Part shown: positions 11,372-48,743 of the stretch, piece after piece
Layout of the letters: each line of letters starts with the position of its first letter
Numbering within the stretch: position 1 is the stretch's first letter
Assembly (NCBI GenBank): GCA_913058185.1
Contig: CAJXQX010000011.1
Span: forward strand, 1-64,000
Origin: an uncultured Verrucomicrobiota bacterium
GTDB taxonomy: Bacteria > Verrucomicrobiota > Verrucomicrobiia > Opitutales > Opitutaceae
Direction: 5' to 3'
DNA: 64,000 nt
Notes under the pieces: generated by a model
Told to the model about the DNA's origin: nothing
Databases searched by the model: none
The model's input: the letters and a program-made list of their open reading frames with translations, nothing else
Made by a program: the position numbers and the translations under genes

Positions 11372-12874
11372 CTACAGCGCCGGCGCATCCCAAACCGGGA
11401 TGCCGCGCGTTGCGAGTTGCTGGTGATAGCGCACGGCCTGCGGCTGTTCGGGAGTGAAGGGGCGATCCTCGTTAACCATGAGCGGACGCGTTTCGGCCCA
11501 CCACGTATCGTAGGCCTCGCGCATCTCTGCGACGACTTCGGGGTGTTCTGCCGCGACGTCGACTTTTTCGTAAGGGTCGTTGGCGATGTCGAATAGCTCG
11601 GTGTTATTGACGAAGCGCCACTGCTGGCTGCGCACCGCACAGTCTTTGAATTTCCAACCTTCGGGATCTTCGCCTTTCGGCCAGCGACCTTTGTGGATAA
11701 ACAGATGGCGATCCTCCCAAGCGGCGTTCGAATTCTCTAACAGGGGCAAGATTGAGCGCCCATCAATCGCCTGAATTCCCGCCGGCATTTCCGCTCCGGC
11801 CAACTCCGTCATTGTTTTGAAGAAATCGATGTGAGCGACGAGCGCATTGATATCCACGCCTTGCCCCAGCACCCCTTCCCAATACCAGAATGAGGGCACG
11901 TGCGTGCCGCCTTCATAGGGACTTCCCTTCCCCGTTTTGAAACCAGCAGTGTAATGTCGGACTGACTTACCGTCCTTTTTGCCAGCGCGTCCCGCTTGAC
12001 CGTTGTCGGTCATGAAAATCACGAGCGTATTCTCGAGCGCATCCCACTCGCGTAATTTTTGAATAAGCAAACCGAAGTTGTCGTCGATGTTTTCGATCAT
12101 GCCGTAACGACCGGCCGTGTTGGCATCCCAGCCTTGGTCCAGCCATTTATTCCGATAGCGCTCCGGCGCCAGCATGGGGCCATGCGGTGCGTTCAATGTG
12201 ATGTAGGCGAAGTAAGGCGTCTGCGCTTCATGCTGCTGTTTGATCCAACCGAGCCCGGCCTGGAAAAACACGTCGGTGCAAAAACCCTCCGTCTGCACGA
12301 TGGTATCGTTGTGCAGGATCACGTTATCAAAATAACGTCCTTCCGTTTCGCGATTCGGCGGGAAGTCAGCGCAACTGCCTTCATACGCTTGCCCGATGCC
12401 ACCGGCACCGTGAATGAACGTCTCGCTGAACCCTCGGCTGTAGGGTTGATGAGCGTCCTCGTCACCTAAGTGCCATTTGCCAAAAATACCTGTTTCGTAG
12501 CCCGCGCGCTGCAGCAGTTTAGGAAACGTGGTGGTCGAAAGTGCCATAATCTCGCGCTCGAGAATCGTATGAGTCACACCGTTTTTGAATTCGTGCCGCC
12601 CACTGAACAACGCCGACCGCGTCGGCGCACATGTCGGGCTCACGTGCATTTCGGTGAACCGCGTCGATTGGGCATAGAACTTATCCAAGTTGGGCGTCGA
12701 GATGATCGGATTCCCGAAACAGGCCAAGTCCCCCATGCCTTGATCATCGGTGAGCACAAAAATGATATTGGGCCGAGATCCTTCCAGCGACTTGGCGGAG
12801 AGCGGGAGTGCGGCACTGAACAGCACAACCAGTGAAAGCAGGAACAAGCGAAAAGCAGGGGTAGGCGGTTTCAT
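11372..12874 (-). CDS. Secreted formylglycine-dependent sulfatase (S1 family)
   Basis: A 500-residue sulfatase starting at ATG 12874 with a clear signal peptide (residues 8-27); an upstream GTG/TTG-type extension of 25 residues has no such logic. The metal site begins IIFVLTDDQGMGDLACFG and the sulfatase signature SPTCAPTRSALFSGR places the formylglycine precursor at Cys82 (C-x-P-x-R). It would hydrolyse sulfate esters of an exported or imported polysaccharide. Maturation needs a formylglycine-generating enzyme not seen here. It is one of four sulfatases in the window and reads in the same direction as the sialidase-like gene. Confidence 0.93.
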   Translation of the reverse strand: MKPPTPAFRLFLLSLVVLFSAALPLSAKSLEGSRPNIIFVLTDDQGMGDLACFGNPIISTPNLDKFYAQSTRFTEMHVSPTCAPTRSALFSGRHEFKNGVTHTILEREIMALSTTTFPKLLQRAGYETGIFGKWHLGDEDAHQPYSRGFSETFIHGAGGIGQAYEGSCADFPPNRETEGRYFDNVILHNDTIVQTEGFCTDVFFQAGLGWIKQQHEAQTPYFAYITLNAPHGPMLAPERYRNKWLDQGWDANTAGRYGMIENIDDNFGLLIQKLREWDALENTLVIFMTDNGQAGRAGKKDGKSVRHYTAGFKTGKGSPYEGGTHVPSFWYWEGVLGQGVDINALVAHIDFFKTMTELAGAEMPAGIQAIDGRSILPLLENSNAAWEDRHLFIHKGRWPKGEDPEGWKFKDCAVRSQQWRFVNNTELFDIANDPYEKVDVAAEHPEVVAEMREAYDTWWAETRPLMVNEDRPFTPEQPQAVRYHQQLATRGIPVWDAPAL

Positions 12875-13001: not shown

Positions 13002-13892
13002 GTGCTTACCCTACTCCCCTCCTCCATTCGCCGTTCCATCACTGTCTGCGTCACCGTTCTCACTTTCGCGACAGGCTCCCTTCTACCGATGGTCGCGGCG
13101 GAACCTCGTATAGAGACCCATGAATACGCGCGCCCCGAGGGGATTCCCCTTACCCTCGATCTCTATCGACCTGAGATATCCTTCGGCGAATTGCCCCTAG
13201 TGATTTTTGTGCACGGCGGAGGCTGGAAAAACGGGGACAAAACCGTGGTCCAAAAAAAGGCCACCTGGCTAACCGAACACGGGTTCGCCGTCGCGGGCAT
13301 CGATTTCCGCCAGACCGACGAAGCCGGATGGCCCTCCCAAATCAACGACTGCTACGCCGCTGTGCGTTGGCTGCGTGAAAACGGCCAAAAACTCGGCCTC
13401 GCCACCGAACGCATCGCCGCCGCCGGCACGTCCTCCGGCGGACACCTCGTCGCTTTGATGGGCACGCGGGCTTACCCAGAAAACGAATCTACCTCCAGCC
13501 GGGTTCAGGCGGTGTTGGATTGGTTCGGACCCGCCGATCTATTGACGATGCCGCCCAACAACGTCGGCAACGGCCGCTCCGCCGAAGACGTTGCCAACTC
13601 CAACGGCGCCAAACTCCTCCGAGCCACCGTGCGCGAAGTGCCCGAGCTCGCGAAGGATGCCAGCGCGCTGTATCAAGTCAGCGGAGACGACGCGGCTTTT
13701 CTCATCATGCACGGTGATGCCGACGAAGGCGTCCCCTTCGACCAAAGCCAACGCCTCCACGCCGCCCTCATCGCTGCGGGCGCCGAGTCCGAACTCATCA
13801 TTTTCCCCGGAGCAGGCCACGGCGGCAAAGCCTTCGAAACCAAGGAAGCCCGCGGCAATGTCGTAGCTTTCCTCAATCAACACCTGCGCTAG
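13002..13892 (+). CDS. Exported alpha/beta-hydrolase (carboxylesterase)
   Basis: A 296-residue alpha/beta-hydrolase of the BD-FAE/HSL-like esterase group. The oxyanion motif is HGGGWKNGDK; the nucleophile elbow is GTSSGGHLVAL (G-x-S-x-G), with likely acid in HGDADEGVPF and His in GAGHGGKAFE. The N-terminus has a hydrophobic segment ending MVAAEP, suggesting export. The start is GTG at 13002; an ATG further in would cut into the signal. It diverges from the sulfatase at 11372 with a very short spacer, so the two may share a control region. Likely role: removal of acyl groups from sugars or esters. Confidence 0.85.
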   Translation: MLTLLPSSIRRSITVCVTVLTFATGSLLPMVAAEPRIETHEYARPEGIPLTLDLYRPEISFGELPLVIFVHGGGWKNGDKTVVQKKATWLTEHGFAVAGIDFRQTDEAGWPSQINDCYAAVRWLRENGQKLGLATERIAAAGTSSGGHLVALMGTRAYPENESTSSRVQAVLDWFGPADLLTMPPNNVGNGRSAEDVANSNGAKLLRATVREVPELAKDASALYQVSGDDAAFLIMHGDADEGVPFDQSQRLHAALIAAGAESELIIFPGAGHGGKAFETKEARGNVVAFLNQHLR

Positions 13893-13909
13893 ATCATATA
13901 CCTGATTAC

Positions 13910-14290
13910 CTATCGCTGAGAGAAACCATCGCCGTTGCGCATGAATTCAATTCTGTTGCCAAAGGGATCAGTCACATAAAATCGCTTTCTATCCGGCAGG
14001 GCCTCATCCCATTTTACGTTGTGTCCTGCCGCCATCAGCGACTCCGCTAGACTCGCCAAATCATCCACTGTGAAAGCAGGGTGCGCTTTGAGTTGTGGCG
14101 AAAAATCGGCTTCAGCCCCAACGTGTAAACGAACCGAACCACAGCGAAACTAACACCCTCCTCTACTCGCCAAAGGCTCCGGTTTCGGTTCTTCGGTCAT
14201 ACCTAAGGTATCGCCGAAAAATGCTCTTGCCCGATTTTCCCCACCCGACGGCATCGCCAGCTGAATATGATCAATTCGGAAGGTGTTCAT
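13910..14290 (-). pseudogene. VOC/glyoxalase-family gene with in-frame TAG
   Basis: The minus strand reads as one 127-codon frame, ATG at 14290 to TAG at 13910, interrupted by one TAG at codon 47 (14150-14152). The product is a vicinal-oxygen-chelate protein: MNTFRIDHIQLAMPSGGE at the start, then FFGDTLGM, and after the stop FRCGSVRLHVGAEADFSPQ and FYVTDPFGNRIEFM. In relatives the interrupted position (RGGC-x-FRCGS) is normally Trp, so TGG to TAG is the simplest lesion. No other disruption is visible, so the loss is recent, or a base-call error. Confidence 0.85.
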
Positions 14291-14303
14291 GGTGGTAATT
14301 ATA

Positions 14304-14395
14304 GCCACAAAAGGCACAGAAGGCACAAATAAAACCAGCCTGAGTCACTTCCCCAGCCATCGCACTTTGCCTCCCCGTTTTGTGCCTTTTGTGGC
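14304..14395. repeat. Inverted repeat of GGCACAAAAG-type units
   Basis: GCCACAAAAGGCACA at 14304-14318 pairs perfectly with 14381-14395. The left arm continues as degenerate tandem units (AGGCACAAA). It lies just upstream of the VOC pseudogene start. It belongs to the same class of tandem-unit inverted repeats as 19443-19616 and 54649-54762. Confidence 0.75.
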
Positions 14396-14414
14396 AACAA
14401 ACCACCCCATGTCT

Positions 14415-14445
14415 CGCCATAGTTCTACTCCGCAGAACGACGGCG
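14415..14445. repeat. REP-like hairpin with conserved mismatches, copy 1
   Basis: CGCCATAGTTCT (14415-14426) pairs with AGAACGACGGCG (14434-14445), leaving two internal mismatches (A-C and A-G) flanking a T-A pair. A second copy at 23651-23685 keeps the same two mismatches but changes the loop-proximal stem in a compensating way. Confidence 0.7.
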
Positions 14446-14537
14446 GATGCCTCTGAGATTTCGTGTATTGTCAGCCCATTCACTCCGTTCATAGACGTGG
14501 TTAAAACCGATCCTACCTCTCCGCCGCCTTCGTAACC

Positions 14538-16082
14538 CTACTTCAGCTCCGACAGGATCCGCTTCGGCTTCAACGTCGGATCGATGCGTTTGGCCCATTC
14601 GGAATTCTTGTCTGCGTCCGCCAGTTTTGAGTTTCGCCCGGTTGGGGCGAAGTCGGCTGGGATCACTGCCGCCAATCGGTTCACGGCCGCTGCTACTTCC
14701 GGTGAGCGTCGAATGTTCAGATTGTCCCATTCCATCGGATCCGCTAACAGGTCGTAGACCTCCTCGGTGCCGTCGTCATAGCGGATATAACTCCAGCGTT
14801 CGTCTCGCAACGAGGCGCCGCCTTCCCTCAGCACGGTCATAGTTGGGTAGTCCCAGGCGACCGTCGGATCCGCCAGCACGGGTCCGAAGCTGCGGCCGTC
14901 TAGTTCCGGTTTCTCCGGGAGGTCACACAGGTCGATCAACGTCGGATAAAGATCTATCAGGTTAACCGCCCGCGAGCTGTCCTGCCGACCGCTCATCCCC
15001 GGCAATCGCACCATCAGAGGCATGCGGGTCGCCTCAGTCCAGCCGGCTGCTTTGCGAAAGCGTAGTTTCTCGCCCAAGTGCCAACCGTGGTCACCCCAAA
15101 CTACGACAATGGTATTGTCGGCGTGCGGGCTCGATTCGAGCGCTTCTAGCAACACGCCCAGACAGGCATCAGCGTAACTGACGGCAGCGAGATAGGCGTG
15201 CGTGGCTTCGTCGATCAGATCGTTTTCCTCCAGCCACAGGTAGTCATCCGTCGGCTTAAACTTAGGCTTCCCATCGGGTCGTAGAATGTCGTCGAGGTCA
15301 TCGCGTTTGATCGGATTGGCCTTCACATCGACATCGGCATACAGATCAAAAAACTCCTGCGGCACGTAAAATGGCAGATGTGGTTTACTAAATCCAATCG
15401 CCATAAAGAACGGCTGATCAAAATCCCGCTGTAACTGCTCCGCCGCCCATTGGGCGTTGCGGTAATCACCGGTTTCTTCCTTCGGACCCTTGGTCGGTCC
15501 CCACGCAAACTCCGATCCCCCACGTCGGGTGTATTCGGACGGAGGACCCGGTTGTCCCGCGATGATGTTTTGGTTGCGCGAATAAAGACCATCGCGATCC
15601 ACTCCCACGCCCTTGGTGCGTGGCAACCATTCCTCAAAGGCCCATTGGCCATCGTCTCGACCGGTCTTCGACGCATGCGCGTGAAAAATCTTCCCGCGAG
15701 AAATCGTGTGGTAGCCATTCTTCGCAAAATACTCCGGCAACGTCGCGTGCGTTTGCACGAGCTCCGAGTGCAGCATGTTCTGACTGTTGCCATACAAGCC
15801 CGTCGTGCTCGGCAAAAAACCCGACAACAACGCCGACCGCGACGGACCACACACGGGGCCCGCACAGTGCGCGTTTTGAAAGATCATCGCGCCCCGATTG
15901 GCAAACGCCTCGAGGTTCGGCGTGATCGCCTGCGGATGGCCACCAAATGGCGTGATCCAATCATTCAGGTCATCGATCGCGACGAACAACACGTTCGGTG
16001 GCGAGGAGGATTTAGCGGAGGCTAGATTCAATGCTACCGAACAAGTCAGCGCAGTAATCAACAGAGGTAGAAAGCGAATCAT
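14538..16082 (-). CDS. Secreted sulfatase, iduronate-2-sulfatase-like
   Basis: About 514 residues from ATG 16082 (signal peptide MIRFLPLLITALTCSVALNL). The metal-binding start NVLFVAIDDLNDWI and the signature GPVCGPSRSALLSG (formylglycine Cys78) mark a type I sulfatase of the iduronate-2-sulfatase-like subgroup, as does the HGWHLGEKLRFRKA block. It would desulfate uronic-acid-containing or fucose-rich sulfated polysaccharides outside the cytoplasm; the exact substrate cannot be read from sequence. It shares the IDDLND pattern with the sulfatase at 47223, making these two the closest pair of the four. Confidence 0.92.
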   Translation of the reverse strand: MIRFLPLLITALTCSVALNLASAKSSSPPNVLFVAIDDLNDWITPFGGHPQAITPNLEAFANRGAMIFQNAHCAGPVCGPSRSALLSGFLPSTTGLYGNSQNMLHSELVQTHATLPEYFAKNGYHTISRGKIFHAHASKTGRDDGQWAFEEWLPRTKGVGVDRDGLYSRNQNIIAGQPGPPSEYTRRGGSEFAWGPTKGPKEETGDYRNAQWAAEQLQRDFDQPFFMAIGFSKPHLPFYVPQEFFDLYADVDVKANPIKRDDLDDILRPDGKPKFKPTDDYLWLEENDLIDEATHAYLAAVSYADACLGVLLEALESSPHADNTIVVVWGDHGWHLGEKLRFRKAAGWTEATRMPLMVRLPGMSGRQDSSRAVNLIDLYPTLIDLCDLPEKPELDGRSFGPVLADPTVAWDYPTMTVLREGGASLRDERWSYIRYDDGTEEVYDLLADPMEWDNLNIRRSPEVAAAVNRLAAVIPADFAPTGRNSKLADADKNSEWAKRIDPTLKPKRILSELK

Positions 16083-16199
16083 AGTCACAAGCCCGCACCC
16101 CACCAAAACCGCTCCCGCGGCGCAACGTGAAAGCTACATCTCGGGCTGAGTAGCCTACGGCGGGGCGGGACTTCGGCGGACATGTTCCTGAGCCGAAAT

Positions 16200-17924
16200 T
16201 CAGTAGCCTACTGCATGGCCGTCTTTGCGGCTTTCGGTGGCGCCGATGAAGACTTTGTTTTCCGCATCCCAGCGGATGGCCTGGTAACCCCCGTAGCCGC
16301 CGGTGTCGGTGCGCATGTCATGGCGGAGTTTTTCGAGCGCTCTCACAGATTCGAAGGGGATACCTGATTCGGTCGTGACGTAGCCGCCATCCTCCATTTT
16401 TGGCGTGTCGTAATCCGTCGATCCGTGGTGCTGCCAACGCGCGGCATCTCCTGCCTCCTGAAGGTTCATATCGAAATCGACGAGGTTCATCACGATCTGC
16501 GCGTGACCTTGCGGCTGCATTGCGCCGCCCATCAAACCGAAGCTCATCCAGGGTTGTCCGTCCTTCATCACGAAGGCGGGAATGATGGTATGAAAAGGTC
16601 GTTTGCCCGGCGCGTAGACATTGGCGTGATCACGCGGATCAAAGACGAACATCTCGCCGCGATCCTGAAAACCAAATCCCTGTCCCGGCACCATCACGCC
16701 GCTACCCATGCCGCGGTAGTTGCTCTGGATCAGCGACACCATGTTACCTTCGGAATCGACCGTAGTGAGATAAATCGTGGCGCCTTGTTGTAGCGCCGGA
16801 TTGCCTGCATCGACCCGGCTCGCTGCGCGATTAAGATCGATCAGCGCGCGGCGTTCGGCCGCGTATTCTTTGGACAACAACCAATCGAGCGGGAAGTCCG
16901 AAAACTCGGGATCGCCGTAAAATTTAGCACGATCTTCGAAGGCGAGTTTCTTCGCCTCGATCATGACGTGCAGCGCTTCCGGGGAATTCCAGCCCATGCC
17001 GCGAAGGTCATAACCCTCGAGAATATTCAACATCTGCAGCGCCGCGATACCCTGCCCGTTCGGGGGTAGTTCAAACACGTCGTATCCGCGGTAGTTTACC
17101 GAAACCGGATCGACCTAGGTCGACGTATGCGCTTCGAGATCGGCCTTGCGCAGAAACCCTCCGTTGGCGCGCATAAATGCATCGATCTCATCCGCGATCT
17201 CACCGCGATAAAAGGTGTCGCGCCCTCCCGCTGCGATGCGGCGGTAGGTGTTAGCAAGGTCTGGGTTTTTGAAAATCTCCGCCTTTTTCGGGGCAACCCC
17301 ACCTGGCATCCACGTTTCGTAGGCGGCGCCCGGAACATCTTCGTAATAGTAGGCGTATTTCCAATAATAGGCAATGAGCTCGGTGAGCGGAAATCCCTCC
17401 TCCGCGTAGCGGATGGCTGGCGCGAGAATATCAGCCATCGGCATTTTCCCGAACTTGCCGTGCAGTTCATACCAACCATCGACGGTGCCCGGCACCGATA
17501 TCGGCAGCATGCCGCGTGCCGGAATCTTATCGACGCCTAGCTTCGCCAGCTCGGCACGCATCTGATCATAGCTCAACCCCAGCGGCGAGCGGCCGGAAGC
17601 GTTAAGACCGTAGAGTTTTTGCTCCTTGGCGCTCCACACGATGGCGAACAGGTCACCGCCGATACCATTGCCCGTGGGTTCCATCAACCCGAGGGCAGCA
17701 TTAGTCGCGATAGCGGCGTCGATGGCGTTACCACCTGCCTTGAGCACATCGAGACCGATCTGGGCGGCGAGCGGTTGGCTGGTGGCCACCATGCCGTTTT
17801 GGGCGATAACTTCGGCGCGGGTGGCAAAGGAGCGACTGGCGACGCGATCGATTTGTCCGTTAAGTTGCATGACGAGGGCGAGCAGCCCGGTGAATAAGAC
17901 CATGAGTCGGGCGAAACGTAGCAT
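16200..17924 (-). pseudogene. Gamma-glutamyltransferase gene split by one TAG
   Basis: One 575-codon frame runs from ATG 17924 to the stop at 16200, broken only by TAG at 17115-17117. The N-terminal part has a signal peptide, then GMVATSQPLAAQIGLDVLKA and GGNAIDAAIATNAALG; after the stop the frame resumes VDPVSVNYRGYDVFELPPNG, exactly as in GGT proteins, where the missing residue is usually Trp. The catalytic Thr lies in GATIYLTTVD about 110 residues later, and GLMGGAMQPQGHAQ is intact. The enzyme cleaves gamma-glutamyl bonds of glutathione and relatives in the periplasm after autocleavage at that Thr. Without readthrough no active enzyme is made. A downstream GTG at 17078 could restart only the second part. 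Confidence 0.88.
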
Positions 17925-18282: not shown

Positions 18283-19437
18283 ATGAACGACTCCGATCCC
18301 GACAGCATCGATGCCCTGCCCGCCGAACCCGGCGAGGTCGGACTCGTCGCGCCGGTTGACTACGTTTCGGATGAGCCGTTCACGTTCGAGTCGGGTCGCA
18401 CGATTCCTGGATTCACGTTGCGTTACGAAACCTACGGCCGCCTCAACGCGGCCGGGGACAACGCCATTCTAGTGTGCCACGCCCTTTCCGGCGATCATCA
18501 CTGCGCGGGTTTCCACAGCCTGTCTGACCGTAAGGTGGGTTGGTGGAACAACATCATCGGCCCCGGTAAGGCGCTCGATACTAACCGCTACTTCGTCCTA
18601 GGCTGCAATGTGCTCGGCGGCTGCCAAGGTTCGACCGGACCGCTCTCGGTCGACCCCGAGACCGGCCAACCCTACGGCATCAATTTCCCGATCGTCTCGA
18701 TCCGCGACATGGTGCGCACGCAGGAGCGTTGGTTACGCGCGATCGGCGTAACCCAGCTCGCCGGCGTCATTGGTGGCTCGATGGGTGGCATGCAAGTGCT
18801 CGAGTGGGGCATCACCTTCCCCGGCTTCGTGCGCAAGTTACTCGCCATGGCCACGACCGCTCGCGAGAGCGCCCAGGCCATCGCGTTCAACGAAGTTGGA
18901 CGTCAGGCCATTCTGCAAGACCCCGACTGGAACGAAGGCAACTATGCTTCCGGCGAAGGCCCTCGGGTAGGATTGGCCATCGCCCGCATGATGGCCCACA
19001 TCACTTATCTGAGCGATGCATCGATGGCGCGTAAATTTGGCCGCCGCACCGTCGCGAATTCAAAGGAGTCCACCGGCGCGTTCGACGTGCAATTCGAGGT
19101 GGAGAGCTATCTCCGTTATCAAGGCAAGAGCTTCACCAATCGCTTCGATGCCAACTCCTACCTCTACATCACGCGAGCGCTCGACCAGTTCGATCTCGCC
19201 GCGGGCCCCGGTTCGCTGGAAGCAGCGCTCCAACCGGTCACCGCAGATGCTTTGGTGGTGGGCTTCACCAGCGACTGGCTCTTCCCTCCCAATCAAAACC
19301 GCGCCATCGTCACGGCACTGTTGCGGGCCGGCAAACAAGCCAGCTATGCTGAGCTTACCACTGACCTCGGCCACGATTCCTTCCTGCTCGAATCCCCCGA
19401 ACTCTACGCCCTCGTCCGCGACTTCCTCGCCAGCTGA
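18283..19437 (+). CDS. metX: Homoserine O-acetyltransferase
   Basis: A 384-residue MetX of the alpha/beta-hydrolase fold, which transfers acetyl (or succinyl) from CoA to homoserine, the first committed step of methionine synthesis. The nucleophile Ser166 lies in GGSMGGMQVLEW; Asp331 (TSDWLFPP) and His364 (LGHDSFLLE) complete the triad. HALSGDHHCAGF and GCNVLGGCQGSTGP are family blocks. Length matches the family. It is followed by metW after a repeat-filled 250-nt spacer. Confidence 0.96.
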   Translation: MNDSDPDSIDALPAEPGEVGLVAPVDYVSDEPFTFESGRTIPGFTLRYETYGRLNAAGDNAILVCHALSGDHHCAGFHSLSDRKVGWWNNIIGPGKALDTNRYFVLGCNVLGGCQGSTGPLSVDPETGQPYGINFPIVSIRDMVRTQERWLRAIGVTQLAGVIGGSMGGMQVLEWGITFPGFVRKLLAMATTARESAQAIAFNEVGRQAILQDPDWNEGNYASGEGPRVGLAIARMMAHITYLSDASMARKFGRRTVANSKESTGAFDVQFEVESYLRYQGKSFTNRFDANSYLYITRALDQFDLAAGPGSLEAALQPVTADALVVGFTSDWLFPPNQNRAIVTALLRAGKQASYAELTTDLGHDSFLLESPELYALVRDFLAS

Positions 19438-40928: not shown

Positions 40929-42344
40929 ATGAAACTGAAACTGCTTTCCTTGATCGCCCTCATTGGCGCTACCCTCCTGTCACCCGGTCGGGCTGACCAA
41001 CCCAATTTTGTCGTCATCTTCTGCGATGATCTCGGCTACGGCGATCTCCGTGCATTTGGCAATCCCACCATCAAGACGCCCCACCTCGATCGCATGGCCG
41101 AGGAGGGGCAGAAGTGGACCCAGTTCTACTCCGCCGACCCCATCTGCACTCCCAGTCGAGCCGGGCTGCTTACCGGTCGATACCCCATTCGCAATGGCAT
41201 GACGTCCCCCAAACGCGGCGTGCTTTTCCCCGACTCGTCCCTCGGTCTCCCGGCTGTCGAAGTCACCATTGCCGAAGTCCTCAAACAACGCGACTACGCC
41301 ACCGCCGCCGTCGGTAAATGGCACCTCGGCCACCTGCCTCAATACCTCCCCACCGCTCAGGGTTTTGATTCCTACTACGGCATCCCCTACTCCAACGATA
41401 TGGCGAGAATCAAAGGTGCGCCCAACTACCGGCAACAGACCGACGATCCCGACTACTACGCCGACACCAACGATTTCGACGTGCCCTTGATGGAGAACGA
41501 TCGCGTGATCGAACAACCCGCCAACCAGAACACCATCACCCGACGCTACACCGAACGCGCCGTGGAGTTTATCGAGGCCCACCAAAAGCAACCGTTCTTC
41601 CTCTATCTCGCCCATTCCCTACCCCACATCCCATTGTTTGTTTCAACCGATTTTCGCGGTCAAAGCCGCCGCGGTCTCTACGGCGATGTGATCGAAGAAA
41701 TCGATTGGAGCGTCGGCCAGGTGCTCGAAACCCTGCGTCGGCTCGACCTCGCTAAAAATACCGTCGTCGTGTTCACTTCCGACAACGGTCCTTGGCTTTC
41801 TTTCAAAACCCACGGCGGATCCGCCGGCCCCCTCCGCGCCGGCAAAGGCACGACCTTCGAAGGAGGCCAGCGTGTGCCGACTGTCTTCTGGGGACCCGGC
41901 TTCGTGAAACCCGGCGTGGTCGATGGCATGGGGTCGACAATCGATCTGCTTGAGACCTTCGCTCACCTCGCTCATGCCGACGCACCCACTGATCGCAAGA
42001 TGGATGGCTACGACCTGACTCCAGCCCTAATCGGCAAGGGGCCAAGTCCTCGGGAAGAGTTTTTCTACTGGACGATGGGGAAACTGCATGCCGCGCGCTC
42101 CGGCCCCTGGAAACTCCACTTCCTCCAACGCGAGGCCGTTCAATACAGTCGGCTGGTGCCCATGGATCACCCGGAACTCTACCACCTCGAGAAAGACATC
42201 TCGGAAGCCTACGAAGTCTCGACCACTCATCCGCAGATTGTGAAAGATTTGACCGCCAAAGCCGAAGCTCACCTCGAAGACACCGCCGATTCCCTGCCCG
42301 AACAATTGAGCGCCCGTATTCCGAACTTCAAATACCGTCGCTAA
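40929..42344 (+). CDS. Secreted arylsulfatase (S1 family)
   Basis: A 471-residue sulfatase with signal peptide (MKLKLLSLIALIGATLLSPG). Metal site NFVVIFCDDLGYGDLRAFGN; signature DPICTPSRAGLLTGRYP (formylglycine Cys73); HLGHLPQYLPTAQGFDSYYG and TSDNGPWLSFKTHGGSAG are arylsulfatase A-like blocks. It would remove sulfate from a glycan or aryl ester. It heads a rightward set: sulfatase, glycerophosphodiesterase, SGNH hydrolase. Confidence 0.94.
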   Translation: MKLKLLSLIALIGATLLSPGRADQPNFVVIFCDDLGYGDLRAFGNPTIKTPHLDRMAEEGQKWTQFYSADPICTPSRAGLLTGRYPIRNGMTSPKRGVLFPDSSLGLPAVEVTIAEVLKQRDYATAAVGKWHLGHLPQYLPTAQGFDSYYGIPYSNDMARIKGAPNYRQQTDDPDYYADTNDFDVPLMENDRVIEQPANQNTITRRYTERAVEFIEAHQKQPFFLYLAHSLPHIPLFVSTDFRGQSRRGLYGDVIEEIDWSVGQVLETLRRLDLAKNTVVVFTSDNGPWLSFKTHGGSAGPLRAGKGTTFEGGQRVPTVFWGPGFVKPGVVDGMGSTIDLLETFAHLAHADAPTDRKMDGYDLTPALIGKGPSPREEFFYWTMGKLHAARSGPWKLHFLQREAVQYSRLVPMDHPELYHLEKDISEAYEVSTTHPQIVKDLTAKAEAHLEDTADSLPEQLSARIPNFKYRR

Positions 42345-47222: not shown

Positions 47223-48743
47223 TTAGAGAGGCCGCCCTACCGCCTCACTTTTTCCCTCAGCCGCAGGCCGAGCTCGACCACGATGGTAAGGGGAATCGGT
47301 CGGAATCTTTACGTCGGCAACTGCACCTCGGGGTAATTCTCCAGCGAGGCGCGCTTTCACTGCCGCATAGTTCGGATCGTCGGCGAGGTTGTGAAATTCG
47401 TTTCGGTCCTTTTGCAAATCGTAGAGCTCTTCGAATCCGTCTGCGTATTGAATATATCGATACTGAGTATCACTTAGCCCGTGTGACGCCTTCGTGCCGT
47501 CACCGGGAAAGACAAACGACGTGAGGGATACGCGATCATCGAACTTCGCAGGATTACGCACTTGGGCCGCGATCGAAGTGCCCGTGCATTGCGCCGGGAT
47601 GGGTAGGCCTGCGAGTTCACAGAGCGTGGGATACAGGTCGGTCGTGGTGGTGGGTTGAGGCGTGCGTTCGCCGTCGCGAGACACGCCCGGGGCGTGGATA
47701 AAGACGGGAGTGCGAGTCGTCTGTTCCCACAACGCGAACTTCTCCCAGTTTTCTTTTTCCCCAATATGAAAACCATGATCTGACCAGAGCACGATGATGG
47801 TGTTTCCCGCGAGAGGTGAGGCATCCAGTCCATCTAACAGTCGGCCCAACTGATCATCCACGTAGCTGATCGAGGCCAGGTATCCCCGCATGAGGTGTTT
47901 CCATTGCTGGTTATCGGTCACCCATTTGTGCCAGCGTTCGCGACGATGGCTGCGCGCATCGTCCAAGTCCGATTCGAGGTATTCCGGCAGGACCACACGG
48001 TCTTCTGGATAAAGATCAAACCACTGCTGCGGTACTTCCCACGGGATGTGCGGCCGGAAGAGCCCCACTCCTAAAAATAATGGCTGTTCCCGCGATTCAT
48101 TCAACTGCTCGATCGCCCAGTCCACCACCGGACCATCACCTTGATCCGCGCGCAACGCGACGGGCGCGGCGCCAAAGTAGTGATCGCGCAAGGGACGTTT
48201 ACCCACGAATCCCGCGTTTTGATCGAGCGCGGTGATGGCCGGACGCGGCCAGTCGGGCGAAATGGGATCGAGCGGATCGCCCCGATATTCATCCCACGCC
48301 GTCGGATCGTTTTGGGAGTCACCGGAAGTCCATTGCAAAGTGTGAAAAATCTTCCCGGCCCCCGCTGCATAATAACCATGGTCGCGAAAGTGCTGGGAGA
48401 GCACCACGGCATCCGCCAAAGCCACAGACTCGTGACGCCAACGCGGCCCATGAGCGCCAAACAGATTGCGATAAATACCCGAAGTCGTCGGATGCACGCC
48501 CGTCATGACTGCGACCCGCGAAGGATGACACGCCGGGGCCGCGCAATGCGCATTGGAAAACGTCACCGAACGCTGCGCCAAACGATCAAAGTTCGGCGTC
48601 TTGATCCCCGGATGATTATCCAACGGTGAAATGTAGTCGTTCAAATCATCAATGGAGATGAACAACACATTCGGTTTTGGATCCGCGAACGAGCTAAGGA
48701 CAACCAACGAGAGAACTAGGGGTAAGCGGATGAAACGAAACAT
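47223..48743 (-). CDS. Secreted sulfatase, iduronate-2-sulfatase-like
   Basis: A 506-residue sulfatase with signal peptide (MFRFIRLPLVLSLVVLSSFA). NVLFISIDDLNDYISPLDNH and the signature AAPACHPSRVAVMTGVHP (formylglycine Cys72) place it with the iduronate-2-sulfatase-like group, as does DHGFHIGEKENWEKFALWE. It parallels the sulfatase at 14538. Upstream on the same strand is the DUF3472 gene, so the two may act on one substrate. Confidence 0.93.
   Translation of the reverse strand: MFRFIRLPLVLSLVVLSSFADPKPNVLFISIDDLNDYISPLDNHPGIKTPNFDRLAQRSVTFSNAHCAAPACHPSRVAVMTGVHPTTSGIYRNLFGAHGPRWRHESVALADAVVLSQHFRDHGYYAAGAGKIFHTLQWTSGDSQNDPTAWDEYRGDPLDPISPDWPRPAITALDQNAGFVGKRPLRDHYFGAAPVALRADQGDGPVVDWAIEQLNESREQPLFLGVGLFRPHIPWEVPQQWFDLYPEDRVVLPEYLESDLDDARSHRRERWHKWVTDNQQWKHLMRGYLASISYVDDQLGRLLDGLDASPLAGNTIIVLWSDHGFHIGEKENWEKFALWEQTTRTPVFIHAPGVSRDGERTPQPTTTTDLYPTLCELAGLPIPAQCTGTSIAAQVRNPAKFDDRVSLTSFVFPGDGTKASHGLSDTQYRYIQYADGFEELYDLQKDRNEFHNLADDPNYAAVKARLAGELPRGAVADVKIPTDSPYHRGRARPAAEGKSEAVGRPL

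Follow-up and report, generated by a model that had tools for sequence, protein, structure and literature searches.

A TAG codon at a conserved tryptophan position of a gamma-glutamyltransferase-family gene: probable ordinary gene decay in an environmental bacterial genome

Stop codons of pseudogenes can take on the appearance of a changed genetic code. For eight yeast species, Trp was inferred as the meaning of UAG or UGA, and in the excerpts of the study considered here the authors blame these results on protein domains that were aligned over the stops of pseudogenes (PMC8629427). The same excerpts warn, with regard to code screens, that pseudogene stops mimic UAG/UGA = Trp, as TGG is one transition away (PMC8629427). 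A locus of this appearance lies in the stretch of 64,000 nucleotides analysed here (the window), which belongs to contig C11 of an environmental genome (G000) of 4,094,351 bases in 159 contigs, with a completeness of 99.18% and a contamination of 2.06%. The interrupted gene belongs to the gamma-glutamyltransferase (GGT) family, whose members cleave themselves at a catalytic Thr and so come to consist of two chains. The features discussed below are collected in Table 1.

Table 1. Positions of the two interrupted genes and of the gene between them in the window
Feature	Position	Strand	Remarks
Glyoxalase/VOC-family gene, accessory	13913..14290	minus	3 of 37 searched relatives have a match; single interruption
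VOC-gene internal TAG	14150..14152	minus	TGG in G004 and G038
Sulfatase gene, intact, between both lesions	14538..16106	minus	90% identical in G005
Gamma-glutamyltransferase (GGT)-family gene	16200..17924	minus	PF01019; 575 codons including terminal stop; single interruption
GGT internal TAG	17115..17117	minus	TGG (Trp) in sister G005 and in 97 of 109 homologous loci read

The interrupted gene and its relatives

Read in the coding direction, from 17924 to 16200, the GGT frame contains exactly one internal stop, the TAG of codon 270 (17117..17115), which precedes VDPVSVNYRGYD. This agrees with the original prediction, which had described a frame whole save for this codon, with the stop at the usual Trp. 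The search of the own genome with the whole gene returned the same locus, with one TAG inside. The PF01019 profile spans the stop (residues 59-569 against profile positions 2-512 of 512, 492.8 bits), and this match over its length places the protein in the family. The best PDB match of the read-through protein is 2nlz, deposited as a cephalosporin acylase (482.5 bits), in which a Trp is aligned to the stop. The structures of the small chain align from around residue 380-387 of the read-through sequence, downstream of the stop. Apart from the TAG, no damage was found in the comparison with a relative. A restart of translation 3′ of the TAG was considered and rejected: the next listed frame opens at GTG 17078, preceded within some bases by nothing better than a weak GGA (judged by eye), and such a restart would split the large-subunit part, so that a working product is not expected.

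The premature stop stands where the relatives have a sense codon. All of the Trp residues counted at this site are encoded by TGG; as two loci were counted twice (L003 = L077 and L007 = L079, both with Trp), the distinct loci amount to 95 with Trp out of 107. The residue is found in 52 of 53 loci at 60% identity or more, in all 37 loci at 45-60% and in 8 of 19 below 45%, and the sole locus above 45% identity that lacks it is the decayed copy of G007, which carries many stops and frame changes. The sister genome G005 has an open frame, 95% identical in protein, and close open copies occur within the genus in G002, G003, G004 and G005. A search of 57 genomes, among them the own genome, gave matches in 34, which in many cases are distant paralogs. 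The matches in G001 do not exceed 34% identity, which together with the decayed copy of G007 indicates that the gene can be lost. In G006, the GGT gene is split over several frames; both this gene and the DUF3179 gene are broken there by frame changes (L019, L212, L220), in an assembly that is 69% complete. Since the DUF3179 gene is broken likewise and the genome is this incomplete, the breaks in G006 are perhaps base errors rather than decay. Among the best 80 loci listed, the closest named ones belong to Opitutaceae and other Verrucomicrobiota MAGs, and Balneolales, Acidobacteria, Proteobacteria and others stand lower.

The comparison of G000 with G005 gives a dN of 0.024, a dS of 0.70 and a ratio of 0.035 for the GGT gene. 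The ratio is 0.077 for the sulfatase and 0.027 for the neighbouring intact ORF at 18283-19437; the closeness of the GGT value to the latter implies that the constraint lasted until recently. The stop is consequently young, or still polymorphic and not fixed, or a base error. The amino-acid changes (10 on the G000 branch, 6 on the G005 branch, 10 ambiguous) are too few to show relaxed constraint, and the absence of visible relaxation is in line with a stop that arose very recently or has not reached fixation.

The original prediction counted the GGT stop as the second Trp-to-TAG lesion of the window. The first one exists as well: it is the TAG of the VOC gene (14152..14150), about 3 kb from the GGT lesion, and its site was read in two of the three relatives with the gene, both of which have TGG there; the third relative is G001. 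The presence of the VOC gene in so few relatives, with no match in the sister G005 among the 37 searched, marks it as accessory. A contig of G005 aligns on both sides of window positions 13892-14538 and not across them. This stretch, which adjoins the sulfatase and holds the VOC gene, and positions 6181-7109 of L076 have no DNA match between G000 and G005. That both lesions lie on the same strand follows only from the orientation of the two genes. We infer that the VOC lesion arose independently, by an event of like kind, in a further accessory gene.

Terminators, tRNAs and other internal stops in the genome

TAG is a working stop in this genome. In a sample of 858 kb, the 314 ORFs of at least 350 codons end in TGA (109), TAA (107) or TAG (98). 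The TAG ends were compared with 341 kb of G005, with the conditions that the coding score is positive and that the relative is at least 78% identical; a stop within 8 codons counted as the same place. Under these conditions, 9 of 12 TAG-ended ORFs stop at the same place in the sister (4 with TAG, 3 with TAA, 2 with TGA), a count that initially stood at 13 of 16, before four frames with a negative coding score were dropped. One of the remaining three is unaligned at its end, and the other two are the GGT gene and the sulfatase of contig C89, whose frames continue in G005. Conversely, the sister has TAG at 4 of the 6 TAA ends with a match.

The Rfam tRNA search of the own genome found 44 tRNA genes, and ARAGORN named the anticodon of each. 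The CUA anticodon, which the original prediction had proposed to look for, is not among them. A single tRNA-Trp with the anticodon CCA is present, ordinary in its look, with the usual five pairs of the anticodon stem (by eye). The tRNA-Ile(GAU) and tRNA-Ala(UGC) are also not among the 44 genes, which means that the contigs lack some tRNAs and that, strictly, a suppressor could lie outside of them.

Around 1.28 Mb of the genome was scanned and supplemented with family searches, which revealed eleven internal stops inside family domains: 7 TAG, 4 TAA and no TGA. The TAG lesions affect the GGT, VOC and DUF3179 genes, a Na/H antiporter and sulfatases of contigs C16, C31 and C89; the TAA lesions affect a GFO/IDH oxidoreductase, a TonB receptor, a MacB-type permease and an Ada-type regulator. 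The eleven do not form a clean sample, as both cases of the window were given and the stretches C16, C31, C52 and C89 were taken for their sulfatase lesions. Two candidates in no family (L166, L281) and three in which the match begins after the stop (L267, L276, L283) were excluded, as was the C52 sulfatase with its many stops, which is long decayed. The lost residue, assigned in six of the eleven lesions, is Trp in the GGT, VOC and DUF3179 genes, Gln in the C89 sulfatase (from an 88%-identical relative, with no further damage in the aligned part) and probably Lys in the C31 sulfatase (from two paralogs at 36-39% identity). Orthologs fix the lost residue in four lesions, three of which are at Trp, two of these being the given ones. 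The TAA of the GFO/IDH gene (L261, contig C102, around 259-630) sits at what we take to be a Glu of the family motif. In the DUF3179 gene (L185:1463, contig C4) the TAG replaces a Trp that is encoded by TGG in G005 and G002, and the comparison with G005 reveals further stops and frame changes upstream, as in a decaying gene. The comparison of further damage with a relative covers the GGT, DUF3179 and C89 sulfatase genes among the eleven. The TonB gene has no match in the G005 sample, and the short or cut frames of the MacB and TonB genes may be decayed too. The Ada-type regulator (L282:4525) and the MacB-type permease (L277:6075) have one internal TAA each, inside the domain.

The coding-score scan of 858 kb gave 34 candidates (15 TAG, 14 TAA, 5 TGA), and that of a further 425 kb, not chosen for lesions, gave 11 (8 TAA, 2 TGA, 1 TAG). 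Gene ends are included in both counts and make up most of the candidates, which were mostly judged by eye only; the scan missed the VOC lesion. Sulfatases (PF00884) have 151 matches in the 4.1 Mb of the own genome and 152 in G005. Such very large numbers occur in organisms living on sulfated polysaccharides. Window matches of this family lie at 11792-12772, 14922-15998, 41001-41975 and 47607-48674. Among the matches listed, internal stops interrupt four sulfatases of the own genome, three by TAG and a decayed one by TAA, and three candidates of G005 (1 TAG, 2 TGA). Other families searched in the own genome give one short candidate with TGA and TAA among 44 ABC_tran matches, one TAA among 47 GFO/IDH matches, and two TAA among 35 MFS matches (C34, C88) that look like gene ends. 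A tolerance specific to TAG was considered because the three cleaner sulfatase lesions are all TAG, but was rejected, as TAA dominates the further 425 kb.

According to codon usage, random nonsense mutations would yield TAG in about 44-45% of cases and Trp-to-TAG in 6-20%, depending on the model tried; with transition/transversion weights of 2-8 the latter range is 9-17%. With these expectations, 7 TAG among the eleven has a p of 0.16-0.17 and 3 Trp-to-TAG among the eleven a p of 0.08-0.28; the absence of TGA is slightly unusual (0 of 11, p 0.02-0.05). Before the later sample was added, the smaller counts had a stronger skew, with p values of 0.002-0.054 for 3 Trp of 5 and 0.04-0.05 for 7 TAG of 9. 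By the expected Trp-to-TAG share and the count among the eleven, the claim that two TGG-to-TAG events are unexpected is weak. As eleven nonsense lesions were found, they are not rare here, and two in one 64-kb window are a modest coincidence. TAG at a Trp codon kept by relatives, for which the original prediction had proposed a scan, is seen in three genes (GGT, VOC and DUF3179); the internal stops of this genome also include TAA and hit Gln and probably Lys and Glu.

Explanations of the GGT stop

Very probably, the GGT gene is dispensable and has only lately acquired an ordinary nonsense allele. By this account, one substitution, G to A on the coding strand, turned a Trp codon into TAG, a plain nonsense mutation that either became fixed recently or still segregates in the population behind the assembly. 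Translation would end after 269 residues, in the large-subunit part, with around 110 residues still to go to the point where the small chain should begin. As the product would be cut before the small chain, this allele is not expected to yield an active enzyme. No second system would be involved. What counts against the nonsense allele is that constraint and an otherwise intact frame are also compatible with a base error or with suppression of the codon. The first of these readings, in which an erroneous base, a faulty assembly or a minority allele went into the MAG consensus and the living population has an intact GGT gene, is unlikely. It accords with a single substitution in such a frame and with assembly statistics that look like those of a MAG. 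However, other lesioned genes are visibly decayed (the frame changes upstream in DUF3179 and the C52 sulfatase), so that real decay is ongoing. Moreover, no motif is common to the seven TAG lesion sites compared, the CCTGG-like context being present at the GGT gene only, which leaves a methylation-linked base-calling error unsupported. This context is also the ground for a deamination hot spot: the site reads ACC TAG G, so its inferred ancestor ACC TGG G would be a CCTGG site, and if the methylated C of the opposite strand of CCWGG were deaminated, TAG rather than TGA would result. A change from CC-TGG to CC-TAG by this route is nevertheless very unlikely as the explanation, as none of the other six TAG lesion sites printed fits; CCWGG as a common mutable motif of the TAG lesions was rejected for the same reason.

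The remaining readings keep the gene functional or change the meaning of the codon. Partial amber suppression or readthrough, in which TAG is sometimes read as Trp or another residue, would suit the still strong constraint of the GGT gene and the prevalence of TAG among the eleven domain-spanning stops, at least three of which replace Trp. It is highly improbable, because internal stops inside domains are not confined to TAG, the excess of TAG is within chance (p about 0.17), the tRNA genes found offer no CUA anticodon beside an ordinary-looking tRNA-Trp(CCA), TAA prevails in the later 425-kb sample, whose counts include gene ends, and the sister has stops at 9 of the 12 TAG ends compared. From the options of the original prediction, decay and polymorphism thus gain support, and partial suppression is not supported, in view of the tRNA genes found, the TAA and Gln lesions and the matched ends. 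It is barely credible that UAG in accessory genes is tolerated in this lineage, either because termination is inefficient or because a suppressor tRNA is encoded beyond the contigs of the assembly; if it were, the GGT gene, the VOC gene and three sulfatases would still partly be made at full length. The reassignment of TAG to Trp in the own genome, for which three genes with TAG at a Trp kept by relatives could be cited, has a practically negligible probability: TAG ends nearly a third of the long ORFs, the sister uses TAA or TGA at 5 of 9 conserved TAG ends and TAG at 4 of 6 conserved TAA ends, and a CUA tRNA was not found among the 44. Trp-specific recoding was rejected in view of the tRNA genes found, the matched terminators and the mixed lesions, which bears out the earlier expectation that global recoding is unlikely where TAG is also an ordinary stop.

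Comparison with known systems

The finding very probably reflects ordinary gene decay. As TGG is one transition from TAG, such decay produces TAG at Trp codons, and an environmental genome can be expected to show this at a few of its conserved Trp positions. Therefore, TAG at Trp should not be counted as recoding without a matching tRNA and a genome-wide excess. The locus resembles the false inferences of UAG/UGA = Trp, as far as the excerpts of that study describe them, in its in-frame stops at conserved Trp and in the absence of a suppressor tRNA among the tRNA genes found; unlike those cases, which concern yeast genomes, it is bacterial, and its nearest named relatives are Opitutaceae (PMC8629427). 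The likeness to PF01019 and 2nlz lies in the family match across the stop and in the Trp of 2nlz aligned to it, whereas this allele is interrupted in the large-subunit part and retains the first 269 residues only. The locus agrees with single-nonsense bacterial pseudogenes: the GGT gene has one premature stop in a whole and recently constrained frame, with intact copies in relatives, and no difference from this class is seen.
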